From assembly GCF_900103415.1 (NCBI RefSeq), contig NZ_FMXB01000015.1, forward strand, positions 13,950 to 69,201: a stretch of 55,252 nt of DNA, in the 5' to 3' direction. Each line of letters opens with the position of its first letter. Position 1 is the first letter of the stretch. Origin of the DNA: Methanobrevibacter millerae. Its GTDB lineage: Archaea; Methanobacteriota; Methanobacteria; Methanobacteriales; Methanobacteriaceae. Below are positions 5,101 through 20,574 of this stretch, piece after piece. A program made the position numbers and the translations under genes. A model generated the notes under the pieces. The model was not told the DNA's origin and searched no databases. It saw only the letters and a program-made list of their open reading frames with translations.

Positions 5101-8100
5101 TTGCGTCTTTGCTGACGGTTAAAACGCCGTCACCTGAATTCTGCACATAATTGTCGCTTTCAGAAATAACAGCTAAAATCGTGTAGTTTCCATCATTCAA
5201 ACCGGCAGGAATTGTTGAAAGGAAAGTAGCAATACCGTTATCATCGGTTTTGTTTGATCCTACATACTGTGCGTTTCTGTAGAATTTAACTTCAATTCCT
5301 GCAAGGGTATCGTTGGCAGCGGTAATTACGGTTGCAACAAGAGGAACTTTAGAACCTGCCTTTGCAGTAACATCGTCCACATTAACCGTGAAATTGGCTT
5401 TTGTAATTTCCAGATTGGCAGTTACGACTTCAGTTTTGTATCCTTCCTTGGATAAGGTGGCCTTGAGAGTGTAGTTTCCGACATTGGTATTCTTATTTAA
5501 TTTATAGCTGACAACGGTTTGAGTGCCGTTGGTTGTCGTATTTGCAATTATTAAGTTATCCAATGTGAAAAGCACTTCAGCGCCTTCAACGTCACAGTTC
5601 AGTACGATATCAAATGAACCGAGGTATTCGGCCGTTGCATCTTCCATGGTTGCGTTTTTAAAGTCTGCTGCGTAATTATCTTTAACAGTGTTTGCAGAAG
5701 GGTTTGTAACGCCTGCATCACCTGATCCTTCAGCGCCTTTAAGATAGTTGTCTGTTACTGTGTTTCCGGTTGATTCGTTTGATAAGTAAACCGGATAGCC
5801 TTCAGCAGTAGTAATTGCATTATAGGTAATTTCATTGTTGGTTGATTTTCCGGCCAAAAATATACCTGAATTATCAGCTTTTACACTGTCCTTCAATATG
5901 AAACCGAGGTTTTCACCAGTACCGTTTGAGGTAATTTCATTATCCTTAATCACGTTATTGTCAGCGTTGATGCCTGCAATTCCTGAAATTATTTTACCTA
6001 CACCGGAAATAATATTGTTTTTAATGGTGTTGTTGTCTGAATCGTAGGCTTCAATTCCGTATCCTGCTCCGGCATCCATATTAATGACGTTGTTTTCTAT
6101 TGTGGATTTTCCGGACATTTCAAGAGTGATTCCGTAAGCGGTGTAGTCAACGCTTAAATTGATGTTGTTGTCCTTAACGAGAGTGTCTGCGCATCCCTGT
6201 CCGAATATAAGTCCTTCAACAACGTTGAAACCATTAACTGTAATGTTGTTTGCAATGAACTTGTTGTTTACGGCAGTGGATGAACCAGGCTGTCCTGTAG
6301 GATATGCGATTGCGCCTGCGCCGTAGAGGTAATTGTCGTTACCTTCAACAAGGATTTTATTATTGGAAATAACGTTGTTGTCACAGTCATAGTAGAAGTC
6401 GATTCCCACAAGTGAATTCGTTGAGTTTACAACAAGGGATTCGTTGACAAGTGAGGATACGTAAACGTCATTTGAATCTACGGTGTTGTTGGATGATTTA
6501 ATCATTAAAATGCCGTATGTCCTGTAGATTTCAGGAACTATGTTGGTTCCGTCAAGGCAGTGGTACTGAAGAACATCACCCAGACAGTGCCCGATGCACA
6601 CACCGATGCAGGTTTCTGAATCGTTTGCGTTGATGTCTCTTGCGTCTTCAAATGAATGGATTTGGCCAGTACCGATACAGGAAACAGTGTTGTTTACAAA
6701 TTCACAATTTTCAGCGCCGTATCCGAGTAAAGTGTAAGTCAGTGACTCACCGTGTGACATCAATACGTTGTTATCAACGTAAACCTTTGATGACTGGAAT
6801 ACGTAAATGGCATATGCAGCTGCAGGATCGAAAACAACAATGTTGTTGTTTGTGATTTTAACGATTTGAGTGTCTGCAACGAAAATTGCCCATGCGTTGT
6901 ACCTTTCAGCTCCCCTGTTGACAATAGTCAGGTTTTCAATCCATACGGAATCGGAAGTGACTATGAACGTTGAGTTGTTGAAGGTTGCGTTGTCTGCAGT
7001 TACCTTAACGCTTAGGGATAAAAGGATTTCCTTGTTGTCAAATGTACCATTGAACAATAATATGTCCCCGTCACTTACAAAGTCGTTTTTAAGGTTTCCG
7101 TCAGTGTCAATGAAGTTATGATAATTTGCAGGAGTGATTACGTGGGTAGTTCCGTTAAATACAAAGTCCGGAACGCTTGGGTCCACTTCACCGGCAGGAG
7201 TCATGATCTTACCGGTACCTGCGTTATCCTTGATTACCCAGGAATTCTTGTCCGCATCTGCGGCATTGATTATATATTCGTTTGAAGTCGTGATATTGTT
7301 GCCTGTAATGGTAATTTTGGACGGATATTTTGTTTTGGATGCTTTTGAAAGCAGAACACCGATACCGCTGTCAGATACGATTACATTTCTGTCCACAACG
7401 ATTCCTTCATATTTACCCTGCTGGTGAATACCTGCGCTTGCGGTTGTGTAGATTTCGTTTTCACGAATGACAACGTCGTTTGCGGAAATGTCCATACCGT
7501 ATCCTTTTGTAGCGTTGATGAAATTATTTTCAATTACAGAACCGTCACCGGCTGAAATTCCTGCACCTACAAACATACCGTTAATGGTGTTGTTCCTGAT
7601 TGTTGCGTTTGATGCAAGTGCAATACCGTAATCACCGCCTGTTACAGCATGAGTTGAGAAATCGGTACCTGCAACATAAATCACATTGTTTATAGCCTTG
7701 TTTGACGGGAAATTGGAAGAGGAAATACCTCTGTAGGCCTTATAAATCCTGTTTGAATCAGCCGTATTGTTTCCGCCCATCATCTGAATGGCGTATGCCC
7801 AGGAAGTAGTGTTTACAAGATAATAGATATCATTGTTGTAAATATAATTGTTATAGGATTCTCCTCCCTTAAAATCTCCGCCGGCAAAGCTTGACAGGTA
7901 AATACCGTTGGCGTCATCACAGTAGAGAGTGTTTCCTGCAATGTAATTGTTGTCCGCACTTCCAAGAACTATTATGGAAGTTGACCTTGTACCGTGTCCG
8001 TAAGCAGCGCCCATAGTCTGGAGGACGTTGTTTGTAATGTTGTTAAAGTCAGAGCCTTCATTTAAACAGATTGGATAGGATGAAATACCCGTATTGTTGA

Positions 8101-8659: not shown

Positions 8660-8678
8660 GATGATTTTAATAATCATC
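8660..8678 (-). terminator. Terminator overlapping the end of the CobN-like gene
   Basis: Inverted repeat GATGATT / AATCATC over the final Asp-Asp-Tyr codons and TAA stop, followed on the minus strand by AATTTTTCTTC and a run of seven T. Confidence 0.6.
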
Positions 8679-11600
8679 GAAATCGTTTTTGTTTCTTGTA
8701 TAACCTATGAGGAATATTGCAATAAGAGCAATAACCGCAATGATTACAACTATAGGCATGCTTGATTCCACGCTGCTGCTTTTTGCAGGTGAGCTTTTGG
8801 AAATCTCATAAGCTTTTGAGTCGCTTGCCTGTGAAGCGTCTTCAGCTGCGTCGTTTGACTGGGAAGCATCATTAGCCTGTGAGGCGTCGGATGCTGATGA
8901 AGATGAAGCGCTTGCGTCGGCCTGTGAAGTTGAAGGCTGATCGCCTACAGGACTTACGCCTGCAGTGCCTCCCGTGGACTGTCCGTTTTCCTCAGTGGTT
9001 CCGTTAACCAGAATCTCTTCTGATGAAGGATTTGATTCGCTTTGACCGTCACCGTCTGTAGGTGCGTCATCTGCAACGTATAACGGATCGGTAAGTGTAG
9101 CCTGTGAGAGGATTTCAGCATATTTTGCCTTTTCCTGAGGAGTAAGTGAGCTTGCCTGAATGATTTTCATGTTGAAGTCCAGGTTCTTACATGTGTGGTG
9201 ACAGCATGCGACACCGTACTGGATAGCCATCTTGATGATGTTGTCAGCCAGTTTCTGAACCGCCTGTGCGTCACCGTCCCATACGCCCTGGTCGTTTAGG
9301 TAAAACATCCATGCGGCCATGCTCTGCCATGCGGCGGCCTGAGCGGTTGACTGTACCGTACCGGTGAGACCGTTGTAGGTATTTGCAATCTGATTACCGA
9401 GCTCAGCGTTAAGCTTGCCTCCGCTTAATATTAAACCTCCGTAAAGGTTTTCCATGTTTTTAGCGTAAGACAGAGATCCTGCCTGAGTTCCGACAAGCGC
9501 ATTGTAGTAATTAGGATTTAAAATCATTGAACGGATTTCAAAGTCCAGTTCCTCTTCATAGGTTCTTGCAACGTAATTGTTCTGATTCCTTATGTCAACG
9601 AATGAAGTGTCAGGATTTGCCCCAAGGGTACGTGCGGCATTGTAGAGTCCGCCGAACCAGTCGTAGTAATCGTCTGAATCGATGAATCTCCAGGTACTGT
9701 CGAAGTTCTGAGTAATCAAATCGACCTGTGAGAGTAATGTTTTATAAGCTTCTTTCTGGGCAGTCACAACAATGTTACCTTTCTCATCCATGTTCCATGC
9801 AAATGAAACCTTGTCAAGGTAAATGCTTGTTGCCTCTTCGTTAACCGTTTCGATATTCCAGTCTGAAGTACTTGGAATAAAATTACTCATACCAGTACCT
9901 TCGAGAATTGCTCCAGGAAGACCATAAAGCCTATCCTTAATGCCGTTCTGCTCATAATGGAGCTTGATGTAATTCTGTGAGTAATCTTCGCCTTCGGCGT
10001 TCATGGCCAGATTGACACTGGTTAAAAGCCACGTGAGCCAGTCCTTGTTGCTCGTTACTATGCTTGCAAGCACGTCGACTCTAGGCCTGTTGACAACGCT
10101 TCCGTTGTGAAGTTCAACAGTCAAATCGCTTAAAGGAATCATTTCAACTCCTATGACCTTGCCGTTTTCAGCCCATACAGGCTTGCATCCGAGGAAGTAC
10201 ATGAATTCTGCAAGTCCGATACCTTCGGTTCTTGATATTTCGGTACCCCAGAGGATTAATGCAGTTAATTTAGGCCATTCGCCATGCTCTTCCATGTAGT
10301 CGGCCAGGAGCAAGTCAACGATTTTGACTGCTGATGCGTAGGCTGACTTTGAAGGCATTTTCGTTGAATCCGAAGCGAAACCGTCATAACCTGTCGGGAT
10401 TGAGTCACTGTATGAAGGATCGGCAAAGAGTCCTGCAAGCACGTAGTCGCCTTCCAATGCCTTTATAATGGCTGCCCATTCATTATTGTTCTCGATATTT
10501 ACAATGACGCTTGCGGCATACAAGGTATCGTTATAAAGGGCAGAGCCCACAGATATATTATACTCCTTGTTCAAGGCTTCAACGGACGTTCCGCAAACCA
10601 GCGCTGTCACGTATTCCCTTAAGAATGCCGTAACGACATCTTCCACTAAGGCGTATTTCTCCACGTGACGGATATCCTCATAGAAGTTCATGCCGTCCAG
10701 TTCAGGGAAGAAATGAGCCAGTATGTGATTGTATATTGTAGTCTGGGAAGTCGTAACCGTTATTACCTCTTCAATCAGTTCATAGCCTTCCAGAACCTTA
10801 CCCAGATGGTGAAGACCGTAGGTATAGAAATCGTCCTGCATGCCTTCAAGGTATGAGTGCAGTTCGGCCACATAATCATCAAATGTCTGATTGGACTCAT
10901 TATAAACTCTAAAACCTAAGCTAGGAGCCAGGTCAATAATTAAAAGCTTATATTCCTCAGCATTGGTAGTTACGTTGAGCTTTGACTGGTCCCTGTAGTG
11001 GGCAATGTATTCGTATAACAGAGTATAATTGCCGTACAGTGCTGATGAAACCATTGCAGGAGTCATGTGAGTAATCATCAATGGAGCGATTCTGTCACGT
11101 GCAACCATAGCTTCCCCAGGGTTTGAAACGATATACGGATAGACCGTAGGAGTTAATGTCAGCTCAAAGGTCCAGTCCCCTTCCATTACGCCTATGTTTC
11201 TTCCCGGAAGCCATTCGAGGGTTCCGTGAGTACCCATATTGATTATCGCATTGACGTCTATGACCTGGTCGAGCCATTCGTAAAATGCAACGTACTGCTG
11301 ATGAGGCGGCAGGGACAGGTCGTGATAGTTCTGAACCTCTTCCCATCCTCTTGAAGGCTGGAAAGTAATGAAGACATTGCCGAACCATAAACCAGGAATG
11401 ACAATGTAAGTATTATTGTAGACCATGATTTCTCCGAGTCCGTCGCCCCAGCGGTCAATCATCCATTCATACAAATCAGGATTGATGTTTGCGGTCAGCT
11501 CGTAGAACTGGTTTAAGTCAATCAGCTGATGGTGAGCCATCAAATCATCGAAATTCTCCTCAACGTAATCATTTAACAAACCTTTGGCCCAGGTACCCTT

Positions 11601-13397
11601 GTTACCGAACTTTACGATTAATTCAGTCAAATTGTACAGTGAAGGAATGTCTGAGAGGTCGCCCACATCAAAGCCCGCTTCGTGAAGCTGGAACAATAAA
11701 TCATATGTACTCTGGAACACATCCAGATAGGAAGCTCCGATTTCTGCCTTTCCCGGCGGATAATTGTAAAGCACTATTGAAATGACCTTATCAGCATTGT
11801 CCATTTCCTTCAAATCGGCCCACTGGCAGCCCAACTTGACCATCTTGTCTACGCCGCTTTGAATAACGTGGGATTTTCCCATTCCGTCAACGTAGGACAG
11901 GACTATAGGTCCGTAGACACCTTCAAAACTCGGATAGGTTACTGAAAACGTCCATTCGATTTGAGGACCGAGCTCGTTATTGTAACTTGTTTCGGAAATG
12001 TCATAAACACCTTTAAGGACTGCAAGATCGATATCTTCCAAATCGCCCTGAGCGGAACCGTTTGCATAATTTAAGGACCAGCTATAAAGTGACGTGATCG
12101 CTGAGATGCCCACTGTTGAAACCTTAGTGATCTTGTTTAAGATTGAAGCCATAGGAGGGATGGTGCCTGTCTTGAATACGTTAAATGCTGCCCTTCCCTC
12201 TGCCTCATAGCTTCTGATTAAGGCATCTACAACGCCGCCACCAGAATAGTAGGTAGCAATAGCTATGAACGGTTTGTCGTAAGCGATTTTGTCAATATAC
12301 TCCTTTTCAAATGATTTGAATAGCTCCGTAGGATCCAATGTGTTTTCAAGCCAGTTCGGATAATCTTCAACCATCCAGTTAAGGCTTCCATGACCGTCTG
12401 CGTCGTAACCCGGATTGTCATGAATCCATTTGTTGATTAACTCCGCTTCGGGAACGATTGTGTAGATTCCCAAATCAGGATGGTAGAAACCACATTCAGG
12501 ACTCATCAGCGGAGCGTTTTTAGGATCCAATGTCGGGTCAGCGTATTTGTCCGAATCAATCAGGTAACATACGTATTTGAAGTAATTTGCCATGTTGTCG
12601 TTCAAAACGGATGAATCCTCAATGTCTTCAGCCTGGAAATATGAACCGACATAAGTGTTTTCTATGGTATGATACGTATTGTTTTCTGCGCTTGCGCCCG
12701 TGATATGGATTCCGGTTGCGTTTAAAATGCTTTCGGAATACACACCGAAGGTATATGCCACGTTATAATTAATGTTTGCCGGAGAGGTTTCAAGAATCTT
12801 TTTCAAGTATTCCCCGGTTAAAGTATGATAGGCACCTTCGCTGAACATGTCCAGGTGAATGAACTTGGCGTAGTCAACGAGCCATTCCCTGGTGTTGTCA
12901 TAGTCCGTTGTGCTTATATATGCAACCCTTTTGGACATTTCCATTAATACGTCAACCTTTTCGTTGTGGGAATTGTAATCCACCAGCAAAAGTATATCAG
13001 GAATGAACATGTAATTCAGCAGGGCCGTGCTTTGAGTTGACAGATCCACGCTTTCAACATAAGTCTCATAGGTGGAATATTTAATCTCAACGTTATATTT
13101 CGCTGGATTTAAATTGGAAACAACCACATTACCCTCACTGTTTGTTAATCCTGAAAATACCAATTCGTTAGACGAATCATAAACCGAAACGCTTGCATTG
13201 GCCAGATTTACCCCGTCTTCAGTCCAGGTGTTCGCACTGGCGACATATGAATCATTGACATGAACCGTCAGTGAAGGAGATGCCATCAGTACGTCCGTTG
13301 AATCTATGCTCGATGCAAGTAAAGTTGAATTATCCTCGGCAGAAATCGCGCTCAATGATAGTAAAAGCATTAGCGATATTATTAGAGTAAACAACAA
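8667..13397 (-). CDS. Membrane-anchored, secreted CobN/BchH-like (chelatase large subunit) protein
   Basis: About 1,576 residues. Order: signal peptide (LLFTLIISLMLLLSLSAISA); a small carboxypeptidase-regulatory-like beta domain (about 25-110); a long CobN-like region; a Ser/Asp/Ala-rich linker with ASQASDA-type repeats (about 1440-1545); a single hydrophobic span (VVIIAVIALIAIFLIGY) and a short positive tail. CobN hallmarks are MGTHGTLEWLPGR (about 720), YPYIVSNPGE and ITHMTPAMV, plus CCHHTC near 1400. In typical CobN the first motif reads IHxGTHG; here that His is Asn (IINMGTHG). CobN is normally a cytosolic ATP-dependent cobalt chelatase subunit; this one should sit outside the cell, where ATP is absent. 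The start shown is TTG, but the ribosome site favours an in-frame ATC at 13418 (see the separate entry). Confidence 0.8.
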   Translation of the reverse strand: MLFTLIISLMLLLSLSAISAEDNSTLLASSIDSTDVLMASPSLTVHVNDSYVASANTWTEDGVNLANASVSVYDSSNELVFSGLTNSEGNVVVSNLNPAKYNVEIKYSTYETYVESVDLSTQSTALLNYMFIPDILLLVDYNSHNEKVDVLMEMSKRVAYISTTDYDNTREWLVDYAKFIHLDMFSEGAYHTLTGEYLKKILETSPANINYNVAYTFGVYSESILNATGIHITGASAENNTYHTIENTYVGSYFQAEDIEDSSVLNDNMANYFKYVCYLIDSDKYADPTLDPKNAPLMSPECGFYHPDLGIYTIVPEAELINKWIHDNPGYDADGHGSLNWMVEDYPNWLENTLDPTELFKSFEKEYIDKIAYDKPFIAIATYYSGGGVVDALIRSYEAEGRAAFNVFKTGTIPPMASILNKITKVSTVGISAITSLYSWSLNYANGSAQGDLEDIDLAVLKGVYDISETSYNNELGPQIEWTFSVTYPSFEGVYGPIVLSYVDGMGKSHVIQSGVDKMVKLGCQWADLKEMDNADKVISIVLYNYPPGKAEIGASYLDVFQSTYDLLFQLHEAGFDVGDLSDIPSLYNLTELIVKFGNKGTWAKGLLNDYVEENFDDLMAHHQLIDLNQFYELTANINPDLYEWMIDRWGDGLGEIMVYNNTYIVIPGLWFGNVFITFQPSRGWEEVQNYHDLSLPPHQQYVAFYEWLDQVIDVNAIINMGTHGTLEWLPGRNIGVMEGDWTFELTLTPTVYPYIVSNPGEAMVARDRIAPLMITHMTPAMVSSALYGNYTLLYEYIAHYRDQSKLNVTTNAEEYKLLIIDLAPSLGFRVYNESNQTFDDYVAELHSYLEGMQDDFYTYGLHHLGKVLEGYELIEEVITVTTSQTTIYNHILAHFFPELDGMNFYEDIRHVEKYALVEDVVTAFLREYVTALVCGTSVEALNKEYNISVGSALYNDTLYAASVIVNIENNNEWAAIIKALEGDYVLAGLFADPSYSDSIPTGYDGFASDSTKMPSKSAYASAVKIVDLLLADYMEEHGEWPKLTALILWGTEISRTEGIGLAEFMYFLGCKPVWAENGKVIGVEMIPLSDLTVELHNGSVVNRPRVDVLASIVTSNKDWLTWLLTSVNLAMNAEGEDYSQNYIKLHYEQNGIKDRLYGLPGAILEGTGMSNFIPSTSDWNIETVNEEATSIYLDKVSFAWNMDEKGNIVVTAQKEAYKTLLSQVDLITQNFDSTWRFIDSDDYYDWFGGLYNAARTLGANPDTSFVDIRNQNNYVARTYEEELDFEIRSMILNPNYYNALVGTQAGSLSYAKNMENLYGGLILSGGKLNAELGNQIANTYNGLTGTVQSTAQAAAWQSMAAWMFYLNDQGVWDGDAQAVQKLADNIIKMAIQYGVACCHHTCKNLDFNMKIIQASSLTPQEKAKYAEILSQATLTDPLYVADDAPTDGDGQSESNPSSEEILVNGTTEENGQSTGGTAGVSPVGDQPSTSQADASASSSSASDASQANDASQSNDAAEDASQASDSKAYEISKSSPAKSSSVESSMPIVVIIAVIALIAIFLIGYTRNKNDFDDY

Positions 13398-13766
13398 CTT
13401 ATTACCTAACTTTTTGATATTTTCACCCCCTTTTTATGCTAATTGTGTAAACATAGCAGCATTTAAAAATCCACTATAAGTGTGATATATATCTTACTTT
13501 ATATATAAAATTTAGTAAAGATAAAGTCAATTTGAGAAATTTATCCAATGTAATTGGGAGAGACGAATATTACCTTGTGAGATAACTATTTCCCTGAGAC
13601 AATGAAAATTCAATAAGTGAGTAAAATTGTCCTCATTTTGTAAAATTACAATGTAAAGTAAATATTTACTTCAGAATAGAATTTATTACATTCAAAATCA
13701 AAAACAAAACATTTATATGTATTTAAATCCAATATTAAAACCACAAACTTGATGGTGGTGAAGTAA
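13398..13766. other. Divergent intergenic region with palindromes
   Basis: The region separates the CobN-like gene (minus) from the Rpn-like gene (plus). It holds a perfect 16-bp palindrome AAGTAAATATTTACTT at 13656-13671, an inverted repeat CCAAT-gta-ATTGG near 13545-13557, and a TATA-like ACATTTATATG near 13708-13718 that fits the plus-strand gene. GGTGGTGA before the ATG at 13767 is a clear ribosome site. Confidence 0.6.
13416..13430 (-). promoter_or_regulatory. Ribosome binding site GGGGGTGA followed by an ATC codon at the start of the CobN-like gene
   Basis: On the minus strand GGGGGTGA (13430-13423) is followed after 4 nt by ATC (13418-13416), then AAA AAG TTA GGT AAT AAG and the TTG at 13397, all in frame. 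Starting at ATC would add IKKLGNK, the positively charged head a signal peptide needs. The TTG start lacks both a nearby binding site and this head. The site implies initiation at ATC, or a former ATG mutated by one base, or a sequencing error. Confidence 0.6.
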
Positions 13767-14735
13767 ATGAAAGATGAAAAAAATAAATCAAACTGGCCTG
13801 AAAAGTATGATACTGAAGATACAATTTACAATGAATGTGTAATCAGCATAGAAGAATTTCCAGAATACATTACTAACTATAAAGACATTGAACATTGGGG
13901 ACATACAAAAGTAGTATCAAAAGCTTTTCAAAATTTAAGAATGGATTCCGTTTACGAACGCAAAGACGGCAGTTTGGTTAATATAGAACATCATTCCACT
14001 CTTAATAAAGAAAAATTAGCAAGGGATTTAGACTATATCACTACACTACATCGTGCTACCCTCAAAGATGTCGAACCATTCATAATGTACACTGGAAAAT
14101 TACCTGTTAAAAAAACAGTATATCTAAATTACAGGGATGCTTTCACCCCAAATTTTTTCATTACAAAATTCCAAAATGGTGAAACAAATTTAAATAATTT
14201 GAAATATAAATTAGAAAATGACAAGAAAATCACACCATTTGATGTACTTGATTTGATTTGGCTACCATCCTTTGATACAGAAATTAATAAAGAAAATTTA
14301 GTAGTAGAACTGTCTGAAATCTATGATGAACTAGAAATTTCTAATTCATTATCAGAAGTTGCACAATCATGCCTAATATTATGGGCAAGCAAATATGTTA
14401 AAAAACAAGCCAATATAGATATTATAGAGGAGAAATTACACATGTCAATAACACAAAAAAGGTCCATGGAAGAAAAAATAAGAAACGCTAGAATTGACGG
14501 AATGTTAACCCGAGCAGAAGAAAGAGGAGAAGAAAACGGTGAAAAAAGAGGAATAAAAATAGGGGAAGAAAATGGAATTAAAATAGGGGAAAAAAACGGA
14601 GCAAGAAAAAAAGAAGAGGAAATGATTAAAATCCTTCTCAAAACACATGATGCCAAAAAAGTAGCTGAAATGCTTGAATGCGACATCGAAAAAGTACAAA
14701 AAATAAAAAACAATACAGAAACTCCAGCAGAATAA
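13767..14735 (+). CDS. Rpn-like PD-(D/E)XK family protein with Gly/Glu repeat tail
   Basis: A 322-residue protein. YERKDGSLVNIEHHS (residues about 63-77) resembles the D-x-G-x(3)-(N/I)-E-x-Q core of Rpn/PDDEXK_2 proteins, which are linked to RecA-independent recombination and transposase-like functions in bacteria (family knowledge); here the Gln is His. The tail has the family layout: Gly/Glu-rich repeats (RGEENGEKRGIKIGEENG and similar, about 250-285) followed by a small helical motif, LLKTHDAKKVAEMLECDIEKVQ. Starts at ATG after GGTGGTGA. The tail recurs in the short ORF at 15082 and, with different repeats, at 43507. Confidence 0.65.
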   Translation: MKDEKNKSNWPEKYDTEDTIYNECVISIEEFPEYITNYKDIEHWGHTKVVSKAFQNLRMDSVYERKDGSLVNIEHHSTLNKEKLARDLDYITTLHRATLKDVEPFIMYTGKLPVKKTVYLNYRDAFTPNFFITKFQNGETNLNNLKYKLENDKKITPFDVLDLIWLPSFDTEINKENLVVELSEIYDELEISNSLSEVAQSCLILWASKYVKKQANIDIIEEKLHMSITQKRSMEEKIRNARIDGMLTRAEERGEENGEKRGIKIGEENGIKIGEKNGARKKEEEMIKILLKTHDAKKVAEMLECDIEKVQKIKNNTETPAE

Positions 14736-15081: not shown

Positions 15082-15327
15082 ATGGAGAAACTAAAAATGT
15101 CAGAAATAGTGTTAAGACCATTAGAAGAAGAAATAAGAAACGCAAGAATAGACGGAATGCTATGGCGAGCAGAAGAAAGAGGAATTAAAAGAGGAATCAA
15201 ACAGAAAGAAGAAGAATTAATTAAAAAACTCTTAAATAACTATTCCCCCGAGAATGTCTCATTAATGCTGGAATGCGACATCGAAAAAATAGAAACAATC
15301 AGTCATTCAAAACAACCACATTGTTAA
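15082..15327 (+). CDS. Tail-only remnant of an Rpn-like gene
   Basis: An 81-residue ORF that aligns by eye with the last third of the protein at 13767: EEEIRNARIDGMLWRAEERG matches EEKIRNARIDGMLTRAEERG, and LMLECDIEKIETI matches EMLECDIEKVQKI. The nuclease-like core is missing. There is no convincing ribosome binding site before the ATG, and its 3' end overlaps the opposite-strand gene by 29 bp. Most likely the residue of a duplicated, deleted gene; a small expressed protein cannot be excluded. Confidence 0.5.
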   Translation: MEKLKMSEIVLRPLEEEIRNARIDGMLWRAEERGIKRGIKQKEEELIKKLLNNYSPENVSLMLECDIEKIETISHSKQPHC

Positions 15328-15946: not shown

Positions 15947-16061
15947 GGTTACACCTTATTAATATATTATAAAATCAAAAACATTTAAATATACACACAA
16001 CTTATCAACATAAACATTTATATACTACTTGTAATAATTATAAGTTAGAGAGGTGAAAATT

Positions 16062-16913
16062 ATGCGCAAATCTTTAATTGGTATAATAATCTTATCAATT
16101 GTTGTCATAGCTATTGCAGTTCCTGCAGGCTTTTCAGCCCAATCAGAAAAGACTGTAATTACCTATGGTGAAACTACGTATCATAATGGCGAATACAAAT
16201 CAGTTGTTGACAACTTCTTTGCTCAGCAATCAAACCTTAAGGTAAACAGCATCGAATCAAAAGTTATTACTGCAGATGAAGTGAACAAGATCGCAAGTAC
16301 GATAACTCACAAGACCTACAATTCAAATCAGATATTCTCATCTGCACTTGTTGACTTAAGCGAACAGGGAAACATCAAGGTGACTGTGGACACATCAAAG
16401 ATTACGACCATAACTGCCGACATGTACATTTCAGCCCTTAAATCCGCTGGAATTACCCACGGACACGTCTACGTAACAAGTCCAGTACAGGCAACCGGTG
16501 AATCCGCACTTGCCGGAATCATGAACTCCTATGAAGAGGTTACAAACGTCGAAATTCCTGAAACCGTAAAAGAGGCAGCAAACGAGGAAATCTACACCGA
16601 AGCTGCAATCGTTGAAAACGATAACGTCAGTGCCGACGACCTGACAAAGCTTGTGGATGACGTTAAGGAAACTGTTCAAACCGGAAACATTACAGATCAC
16701 ACGACAATCGTAAACATTATCTACAATTACACTGTAAACAACAACATAAACATGACGAACAGCAGCATTGAAAACCTTGCAACCAGTATTGGCGGAGTCC
16801 AGGCTGTGCAGGGCGATGTACAAAGTTATTCAAGCAAGGTCACCGAATTTGTTGGAAACAACACGGCCGGCGGCTTTTCACTTAATGATTTATTCTCCAA
16901 ACTCGGATTATAA
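16062..16913 (+). CDS. Secreted DUF1002 (YpuA-like) protein
   Basis: A 283-residue protein with an N-terminal signal peptide (MRKSLIGIIILSIVVIAIAV, cleavage near FSAQS). The body matches the DUF1002 layout: VITYGE at the start, an ISSALV-like element (IFSSALVDL), TSDMY-like TADMYISALKSAGITHGHV, then an SPVQATGESALAGIMNSYE helix. DUF1002 proteins are secreted or envelope proteins of unknown function, best known from Firmicutes (YpuA). ATG at 16062 is chosen over GTG at 16053 because GAGGTGA ends 5 nt before it. It is a stand-alone gene with two TATA-like elements upstream (ACATTTAAATA and ACATTTATATA). Confidence 0.8.
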   Translation: MRKSLIGIIILSIVVIAIAVPAGFSAQSEKTVITYGETTYHNGEYKSVVDNFFAQQSNLKVNSIESKVITADEVNKIASTITHKTYNSNQIFSSALVDLSEQGNIKVTVDTSKITTITADMYISALKSAGITHGHVYVTSPVQATGESALAGIMNSYEEVTNVEIPETVKEAANEEIYTEAAIVENDNVSADDLTKLVDDVKETVQTGNITDHTTIVNIIYNYTVNNNINMTNSSIENLATSIGGVQAVQGDVQSYSSKVTEFVGNNTAGGFSLNDLFSKLGL

Positions 16914-19653: not shown

Positions 19654-20574
19654 CTATAACGTGCACAGGATTACATCACATTTGAGAGGGGACTTGTCCT
19701 TTTTAAGGCATAATTTCTCATCCTTAATAATGACCTTATCCTTGAGCTTCACATCATCACTTTCAGCATACATCACAACATTATGTCCCGGTGCAGCCGT
19801 CTGCTGCCAGTTTTCATCAACAGCCTGGGTCTTATCATTCAGCTGAACCTTTAACTCATTCCCATTAATGTCGACAACACGTCCGATGTCTCCGTTGTCA
19901 ATGATCTTGTAGGACATTTCAATTTCAAGGTTTTGCCGGACCAGCTTTTCAACAAGGTCCTGCCTGAATCTTGCCAAAAGCTTAATGTCCTGGTCGATTG
20001 TCCTGTTTAAATTCATCTGGGCGGTCGTTTCGGAATATGTCGGATGTTTTACAATAACATCGAATGTGTCACCGACGGTTGGCGTTTTTAAAGAGACTTC
20101 AGACAAGATTTCCTCAAAGATCTCACGCATTTTCATCAGATTCTGGGAAGCTTCCCATTTTCTTGAAAGGAGTTCTTGAGCCAGTTTCTTTGCATATTTG
20201 TTTCCAAAGAGGATTACTCCATTGTTTCCTGCCTTACGGGACTGGGTTTGAGCACCCAACAGTTCAACAAGCTGATAGCCATTGGTCGTGCCATAAACCC
20301 TTCTTCTTTTTGTCTGGAAGGTTCCTTTGGAGCTCACTTCACCCCGAATGATTTCTCCAATTTCCAAGAGTTTGCTTGAGCCGTCAGTGATTTTAACCGC
20401 AACATTCAACTCCTCTGCCCTTTTTGCCAATTCATCATCATTTTGAATAGTTCCACTATACAGTTCACTTTCCAAAACATTTAATTCATCCTTATCGCCG
20501 AAATAAGCTATTTTTCTTTTATCTGCGGCCATTACGCAGCCTTTTTTACCCATATATGCTATAATCAAACTCAT
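19654..20574 (-). CDS. DUF2121-like conserved archaeal protein
   Basis: A 306-residue soluble protein starting MSLIIAYMGKKGCVMAADKR, a beginning typical of the archaeal DUF2121 family found in methanogens. The N-terminal YMGKKGCVMAADKR resembles the start of Ntn-hydrolase/proteasome folds (inference). The rest is alpha/beta with a C-terminal beta-rich region (IGRVVDINGNELKVQL, a KOW/OB-like turn). Function unknown. It stands alone on the minus strand. Confidence 0.6.
   Translation of the reverse strand: MSLIIAYMGKKGCVMAADKRKIAYFGDKDELNVLESELYSGTIQNDDELAKRAEELNVAVKITDGSSKLLEIGEIIRGEVSSKGTFQTKRRRVYGTTNGYQLVELLGAQTQSRKAGNNGVILFGNKYAKKLAQELLSRKWEASQNLMKMREIFEEILSEVSLKTPTVGDTFDVIVKHPTYSETTAQMNLNRTIDQDIKLLARFRQDLVEKLVRQNLEIEMSYKIIDNGDIGRVVDINGNELKVQLNDKTQAVDENWQQTAAPGHNVVMYAESDDVKLKDKVIIKDEKLCLKKDKSPLKCDVILCTL

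Follow-up and report, generated by a model that had tools for sequence, protein, structure and literature searches.

Gene A of Methanobrevibacter millerae, which lies in a 55,252-nucleotide stretch of contig NZ_FMXB01000015.1 (hereafter the window), is best read as encoding an extracytoplasmic tetrapyrrole (de)chelatase that is related to HmuS of Bacteroides, but is not HmuS. The group of sequences to which it belongs, clade A, is an old and conserved surface protein of the chelatase family, extending across the Methanobacteriales. HmuS is an extracytoplasmic, membrane-bound and demetallating CobN homolog (EMBO J 2025, PMC12583661), described in a paper that also notes many archaeal CobN/HmuS homologs without a known use. 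Extracytoplasmic CobN relatives are already known in the form of HmuS; new are clade A as a conserved surface group, the partner with the cysteine array, the linkage to a motor in the absence of an outer membrane, and a conserved near-cognate start. The CobN/HmuS homologs of gut and rumen methanogens appear as surface proteins with a fixed partner, of a class that is tied to an ExbB/ExbD-like motor.

Architecture and location of the gene A protein

The minus-strand frame of gene A is open from upstream of position 13418 down to position 8667 (Table 1); all domain positions are given in the numbering of the 1583-residue protein that starts at the ATC codon. Nearly the complete PF02514 profile (positions 10–1088 of 1090) is matched, with a score of 578 bits against a curated cut-off of 24.5, which by profile comparison places the assignment far beyond chance. 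The hydrophobic peak of the signal peptide begins at residues 7–10, and cleavage is predicted between SAISA and EDN. Hydropathy reveals a single C-terminal hydrophobic segment, followed by the tail RNKNDFDDY, with its basic residues first. The combination of signal peptide and C-terminal anchor predicts that the bulk of the protein faces outward, and this layout is common to the clade A members examined. Judged from these features, the protein is very probably located outside the cytoplasm and tethered to the membrane. An AF2 model of the CobN core (residues 226–1425), built with nine close orthologs, is not reliable (pLDDT 40.5, pTM 0.26), as the alignment is too shallow.

Table 1. Sequence features of gene A, its leader and its neighbours (window positions, unless another locus is named).
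Feature	Position	Strand	Remarks
Gene A, CobN-like surface protein, 1583 aa	8667..13418, stop codon counted	-	probable ATC start at 13418
Signal peptide, aa 1-27 (IKKLGNKLLFTLIISLMLLLSLSAISA)	13338..13418	-	sequence, hydropathy; kept in orthologs
Carboxypeptidase-regulatory-like beta domain (CarboxypepD_reg, PF13620), aa 67-134	13017..13220	-	33.7 bits vs cut-off 32.3
CobN/Mg-chelatase domain (CobN-Mg_chel, PF02514), aa 274-1385	9264..12599	-	578 bits, E 5e-173
NMGTHG, aa 727-732	11223..11240	-	H731 = HmuS H538; N727 = first His of the family motif
DSDDYYDWFGG region, aa 1247-1260	9638..9679	-	D1250 aligned with HmuS H1209
CCHHTC, aa 1405-1410	9189..9206	-	marks extracytoplasmic members
Low-complexity Ser/Asp/Ala spacer (S, A, D, G rich), aa 1450-1548	8775..9071	-	composition
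C-terminal membrane anchor, aa 1549-1571 (about)	8706..8774	-	hydropathy; basic cytosolic flank
Ribosome-binding site (GGGGGTGA)	13423..13430	-	4 nt ahead of ATC start; sequence, ortholog comparison
Leader pair ATAGTR ... TGCTAT	13453..13477	-	conserved in most genus orthologs
TATA-box-like element	13497..13510	-	sequence, conserved position
Partner: secreted beta-helix protein with Ig-like repeats, 1496 aa	4064..8554	-	Pfam; directly downstream of gene A
Partner cysteine loop (CIGVCIGHCLGDVLQYHC), aa 649-666	6557..6610	-	disordered excursion between beta-helix rungs
DUF1002 secreted protein	16053..16913	+	upstream of gene A and divergent from it in 15 of 21 genus loci
Paralog B	G000:C20; L005:5329-10269		CobN-like, secreted, anchored

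An earlier note on this DNA had described a secreted, anchored and outward-facing CobN-like protein, which is supported by the anatomy, a layout that the examined orthologs retain; the beta domain, the Ser/Asp/Ala spacer and the C-terminal span that it listed are all found (by Pfam, composition and hydropathy). Its picture of CobN/BchH proteins as cytosolic and ATP-partnered holds for the biosynthetic members, but not for the extracytoplasmic HmuS of Bacteroides (PMC12583661). The CCHHTC element is present as described, but does not qualify as a CobN motif: in the alignment Cys motifs occupy the same place in gene A (CCHHTC), paralog B (CCDCSC) and HmuS (CSGFVC); the cytosolic members, CobN and BchH included, lack them.

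Relation to CobN, ChlH/BchH and HmuS

A phmmer search retrieves ChlH, CobN and HmuS as the closest proteins of solved structure, HmuS being the best match for the C-terminal third. CobN (PDB entries 7c6o and 9uk9; 23% identity) has PF02514, the DSDDYYxxxGG cleft motif and the Asp at the second axial position in common with gene A, but is cytosolic and associated with the AAA+ proteins CobS/CobT, whereas gene A has a signal peptide, an anchor and CCHHTC and is found in a genome that encodes no such ATPase. ChlH/BchH (PDB entry 4zhj) shares the PF02514 domain and the GTHG motif; it differs in being cytosolic, in its partners ChlI/ChlD and in the His at the second axial position, and the host of gene A has no chlorophyll pathway. 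A PF01078 search of the window's genome yields no AAA+ ATPase of the ChlI/ChlD/CobS/CobT type, the matches being LonB, MCM, ClpX and RfcS only (as identified by reading the sequences).

Biosynthetic metal insertion is a cytosolic process, carried out by class II chelatases of the CbiX/CfbA type, and the window's genome encodes CbiX-type enzymes. A role of gene A resembling that of cytosolic CobN, as a subunit in making cobalamin or F430, is extremely improbable: CobN family models do match and the cleft Asp is that of CobN, but the signal peptide and anchor, the lack of a CobS/CobT-type partner and the presence of the CbiX-type chelatases argue against it, as do scores far under the CobN equivalog cut-offs (357 versus 822 bits for TIGR02257 and 461.6 versus 1619 bits for NF004645). 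By its sequence, gene A shares the cleft Asp with CobN, but neither its partners nor its location.

The 2.7-Mb genome of the window contains exactly two PF02514 genes, gene A and paralog B, both secreted and anchored, and the PF02514 search finds no cytosolic CobN there. The family is present in 63 of 67 genomes of the genus, and orthologs of gene A at 36–52% identity run through the Methanobacteriales. The nearest named relatives come from rumen and gut Methanobrevibacter (goat, roe deer and buffalo MAGs, uncultured RUG genomes and M. millerae); the underlying contig scan yielded eight close Methanobrevibacter loci, seven of which show 82–86% identity to gene A.

A tree of 73 sequences separates clade A (36 sequences) with a support of 1.0 and places paralog B with HmuS (0.96), the latter entered as fragments taken from PDB alignments; true CobN and BchH stand apart. 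The methanobacterial clades B and C resemble clade A in their signal peptide, C-terminal anchor, Cys motif and association with TUV genes (see below). They are separate from it in the tree (support 1.0); clade A has CCHHTC and DSDDYYDWFGG and, unlike B and C, is tied in Methanobrevibacter to a beta-helix protein with a cysteine array. At one further locus (L152, G118:C1:2092500-2106500), a 2564-residue CobN-like protein has TUV genes upstream rather than downstream.

Residues of the central cleft

HmuS (hmuYRSTUV; PDB entry 9d26), which turns heme into PPIX in an NADH-dependent reaction, shares with gene A the PF02514 fold, a membrane-tethered position outside the cytoplasm, the essential GTHG His and Glu, a C-terminal CxxxxC-N motif and TUV genes that are tied to the protein class. 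In the alignment, HmuS residues H538, E577, D1208 and W1202 are kept in gene A as H731, E769, D1249 and W1243, respectively. H731, the cleft His of the GxHG motif, is present in all aligned PF02514 members, and mutation H538A abolishes the activity of HmuS (PMC12583661). The catalytic His and Glu and the cleft motif are invariant across the clade A orthologs. At 25% identity, gene A differs from HmuS in having D1250 for H1209, Val for S1067 and Asp for Q1198. The head/neck heme ligand H254 is replaced by Ser, in a region where the alignment is weak; the part of HmuS with the other head/neck ligand, Met79, is recovered in none of the alignments. The position of H1209 is occupied by Asp in true CobN as well, and by His in BchH and HmuS. 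In addition, the gene A protein contains no methionine-rich stretch, whereas domain IV of HmuS has a methionine-rich insertion of 120 residues. By sequence comparison, gene A has not retained the heme residues that are specific to HmuS, and its D1250 resembles true CobN. Precursors of cobalamin or F430, which the earlier note had named as ligands, are possible candidates.

These differences bear on whether gene A acts as HmuS, i.e., as an archaeal heme dechelatase providing heme iron to a methanogen unable to make heme. Heme synthesis is absent from Methanobacteriales (PMC8351635), HmuS belongs to the closest proteins of solved structure and is the best for the C-terminal third, the equivalents of H538, E577, D1208 and W1202 and the C-terminal Cys are kept, and the TUV set is that of the hmu operon. 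The Asp, Ser, Val and Asp at the positions of H1209, H254, S1067 and Q1198, the missing methionine-rich insertion and the grouping of paralog B, not A, with HmuS in the tree make this reading unlikely. Since gene A lacks residues that define HmuS, it is not classed as HmuS, though it is HmuS-like in its location and probably in its chemistry.

The complete cleft motif of gene A reads INMGTHG (residues 726–732). Retention of GTHG with Asn in place of the first His (N727), as the earlier note had it, is correct by sequence. The count of His versus Asn that it suggested gives Asn (12) and Ser (4) at residue 727 among the aligned Methanobrevibacter members of clade A, but shows that the change is not fixed: outside Methanobrevibacter the residue is mostly His (14), besides Ser (3), Tyr (2) and Asn (1). 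Paralog B has Phe or His at this position. As the position varies both in clade A and in paralog B, N727 is, by sequence comparison, a lineage detail and not the critical His, and a loss of activity caused by N727 was rejected on the same grounds. Although the Asn is there, the conclusion once drawn from it, that the protein binds rather than inserts metal, is weakened by the invariance of the HmuS-H538 equivalent and the variability of the first His.

A beta-helix partner with a cysteine array

A homologous beta-helix gene follows gene A on the same strand in all 21 Methanobrevibacter loci, by which a chance neighbourhood of adhesin and gene A was rejected. The beta-helix adhesin that had been noted beside gene A is indeed adjacent on the same strand; beyond that, its partnership with gene A is conserved and it bears an unusual cysteine loop. 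The two genes are separated by about 110–112 nt that include a T-rich stretch; mean identity is 63% for gene A and 47% for the partner. For the partner in the window, AF2 gives a confident beta-helix (pLDDT 83.5), in which the cysteine loop has a pLDDT of ∼40 (model residues 174–208). Foldseek matches this model to generic beta-helices, NosD (7osf) among them. The fold is shared with NosD-type beta-helices and with the adhesin-like proteins of Methanobrevibacter, which combine beta-helix and Ig-like (ABD) domains (PMC11532034), but the partner differs from these by a hypervariable cysteine array at one fixed loop and by its linkage to gene A.

The array lies between ...GTGxxHxFE and VxEVYRTYGIL, and its length and unit vary strongly. 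Partner orthologs contain seven-residue units, among them (CxDGxxx)n arrays such as (CLDGDSA)10 and (CTDGNSV)n, and also (CPEGDTV)n, or else CIDGKTY units that are 14 residues long, the protein then having as many as 33 Cys; the window's own clade has (CIGQ)n-CLGD and another genus (TCxGG)n. At the DNA level the arrays are minisatellites of 21/42 bp that probably change fast between strains; such coding minisatellites are seen at L044:12400-12592 and L053:2319-2511. A DNA pattern for three consecutive seven-residue units matches in 17 of the 67 genomes of the genus. In 16 of these all matches are on the strand of gene A and a few kb downstream of it; the seventeenth has gene A at a contig edge and is split there. 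A reversed control pattern gave one match altogether in the 67 genomes. A metal-related role of the array is suggested by its composition alone, and trapping of metal by the loop is possible, if somewhat doubtful.

Gene A is situated among adhesin-like genes, carries a low-complexity spacer and has an Ig-like partner, from which one might suppose that its fold is reused for a structural surface protein or adhesin acting together with the beta-helix neighbour. With strongly conserved cleft residues, invariant motifs and 52–63% identity between species, such reuse is highly unlikely.

Association with TUV motor genes

In the window's genome, paralog B is followed by genes for DUF2162, a MotA/TolQ/ExbB protein and DUF2149 (together TUV). 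The hmu operons of Bacteroidetes are ordered as CobN, hypothetical protein, MotA/TolQ/ExbB and DUF2149. Reading of the DUF2149 sequence reveals an ExbD-like transmembrane motif, NLVDAMLVIAVGFL. The main texts of the literature searched mention neither a function of DUF2149/DUF2162 nor the gene A protein in Methanobrevibacter proteomes or vesicles.

TUV genes adjoin 11 of 13 sampled B loci of the genus (with DUF2149 undetected in one of the 11), and also clade C and other relatives. They are not adjacent to gene A in Methanobrevibacter; as the operon of the window's genome sits with paralog B, its sharing by gene A is an assumption. In genus g10, TUV directly follows gene A, the sole CobN-family gene detected there; all eight genomes of genus g12 have DUF2149 within 10–25 kb of gene A. 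A complete stand-alone TUV operon is present in each of the eight genomes of the genus examined that contain A without B. CobN-family genes and DUF2149 are each absent from four of 67 genomes of the genus, three of which are shared (p = 3e-4, phylogeny ignored); the neighbourhood counts likewise refer to sampled loci with phylogeny ignored. In genomes that lack B, the stand-alone DUF2162-ExbB-DUF2149 operon (L163-L170) occupies a conserved site beside genes for ∼437 and 143 residues; a zinc-ribbon gene usually comes next. Elsewhere in the window's genome, another ExbB/TolQ homolog, of the canonical kind, is encoded at G000:C3:63089-63442 (L177; 282-residue frame, E 8e-28).

To our knowledge, archaea lack TonB receptors and these methanogens lack an outer membrane, so that the motor more likely serves the CobN-like proteins themselves. 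Compared with Bacteroides, the host of gene A has no outer membrane, HmuR or HmuY, and has the cysteine-array beta-helix partner instead. Coupling of TUV to the gene A protein is a serious candidate, short of being probable. The earlier suggestion of a non-catalytic surface binder of tetrapyrroles or metals, i.e., a scavenger or sensor of corrinoids or F430 precursors, would agree with the Asn/Ser at the first His of the motif in Methanobrevibacter and with the lack of an energy-coupling gene beside A in that genus. We regard it as improbable in view of the invariant catalytic His/Glu and cleft motif over the clade A orthologs and of the retention of TUV where A is the only CobN-family protein.

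Proposed mode of action

For the preferred reading, an extracytoplasmic (de)chelatase, the following mechanism can be envisaged. A tetrapyrrole of gut or rumen origin, be it a corrinoid, heme or a chlorophyll derivative, would enter the central cleft, where H731 and D1250 may ligate the ring metal, each from its own side, and donate protons to the ring. TUV, as a motor driven by the proton-motive force, would provide the conformational work, in place of the AAA+ ATPases of cytosolic CobN/ChlH, and the cysteine loop of the partner would accept (or deliver) the metal near the membrane for uptake.

The sequence features make chelatase-type chemistry fairly probable. Given such chemistry, removal of metal is favoured over insertion with slightly more confidence, since cytosolic class II chelatases of the CbiX/CfbA type handle biosynthetic insertion and the genome has them; gene A would then function in salvage. 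Taken as a whole, a C-terminally tethered, extracytoplasmic enzyme of the class-I chelatase fold with exactly this mechanism falls just short of an even balance. Rather unlikely is the strongest form of the proposal, a surface metal-stripping machine in which HmuTUV, by proton-motive force, energises the extracytoplasmic CobN-type enzymes directly instead of a TonB receptor and, in Methanobrevibacter, the stripped metal is caught by the rapidly varying cysteine array of the partner.

If true, HmuTUV would power HmuS in Bacteroides as well, and class I chelatases would gain a new energising route, driven by proton flow and not by ATP. The proposal raises two testable questions: what hmuTUV energises, and how methanogens and Bacteroides compete for tetrapyrrole-bound Fe, Co and Ni in the gut. 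Since methanogenesis depends on Ni and Co cofactors, such competition bears on methane production.

Start codon and leader of gene A

Gene A has no ATG start; translation probably begins with the ATC at 13418, directly behind GGGGGTGA. The TTG at 13397 chosen by the ORF finder was rejected, as it is not conserved and has neither a basic n-region nor a correctly spaced ribosome site. Nearly all Methanobrevibacter orthologs contain GGAGGTGAAAAT, exact or slightly varied, ahead of ATC, ACG, ATT or ATA at the start position; exceptions are one TTG and one ACA with an ATG two codons on. Near-cognate starts are seen at 13416-13418 and in orthologs L007-L034, L036-L055, L106, L107 and L130-L137. In a few orthologs an in-frame GTG overlaps the ribosome site. 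The start is ATT or ATC in the f3 genomes and ATG in other genera, and the beta-helix partners listed mostly have ATG or GTG at the expected place. The conserved combination of a near-cognate start and a strong ribosome site may point to translation that is deliberately weak or regulated.

An Rfam search of the leader gave no match. The ATAGTR/TGCTAT pair would be able to form a short stem in the 5′-UTR, with a loop of 5–15 nt; a NikR-type operator was rejected for this pair, the spacing of which varies over the same 5–15 nt. In the window's clade, paralog B (L005, L059, L064) likewise lacks an ATG.

Upstream of gene A in the window, inserted genes part it from the DUF1002 gene. Between the two lies an Rpn-family nuclease-like gene with a weak TIGR01784 match (13767-14735, plus strand), and a short further copy that resembles it in the tail lies at 15082-15327 (plus strand). 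Further on, the minus strand encodes a Connectase (MJ0548-like), an archaeal peptide ligase, at 19654-20574.
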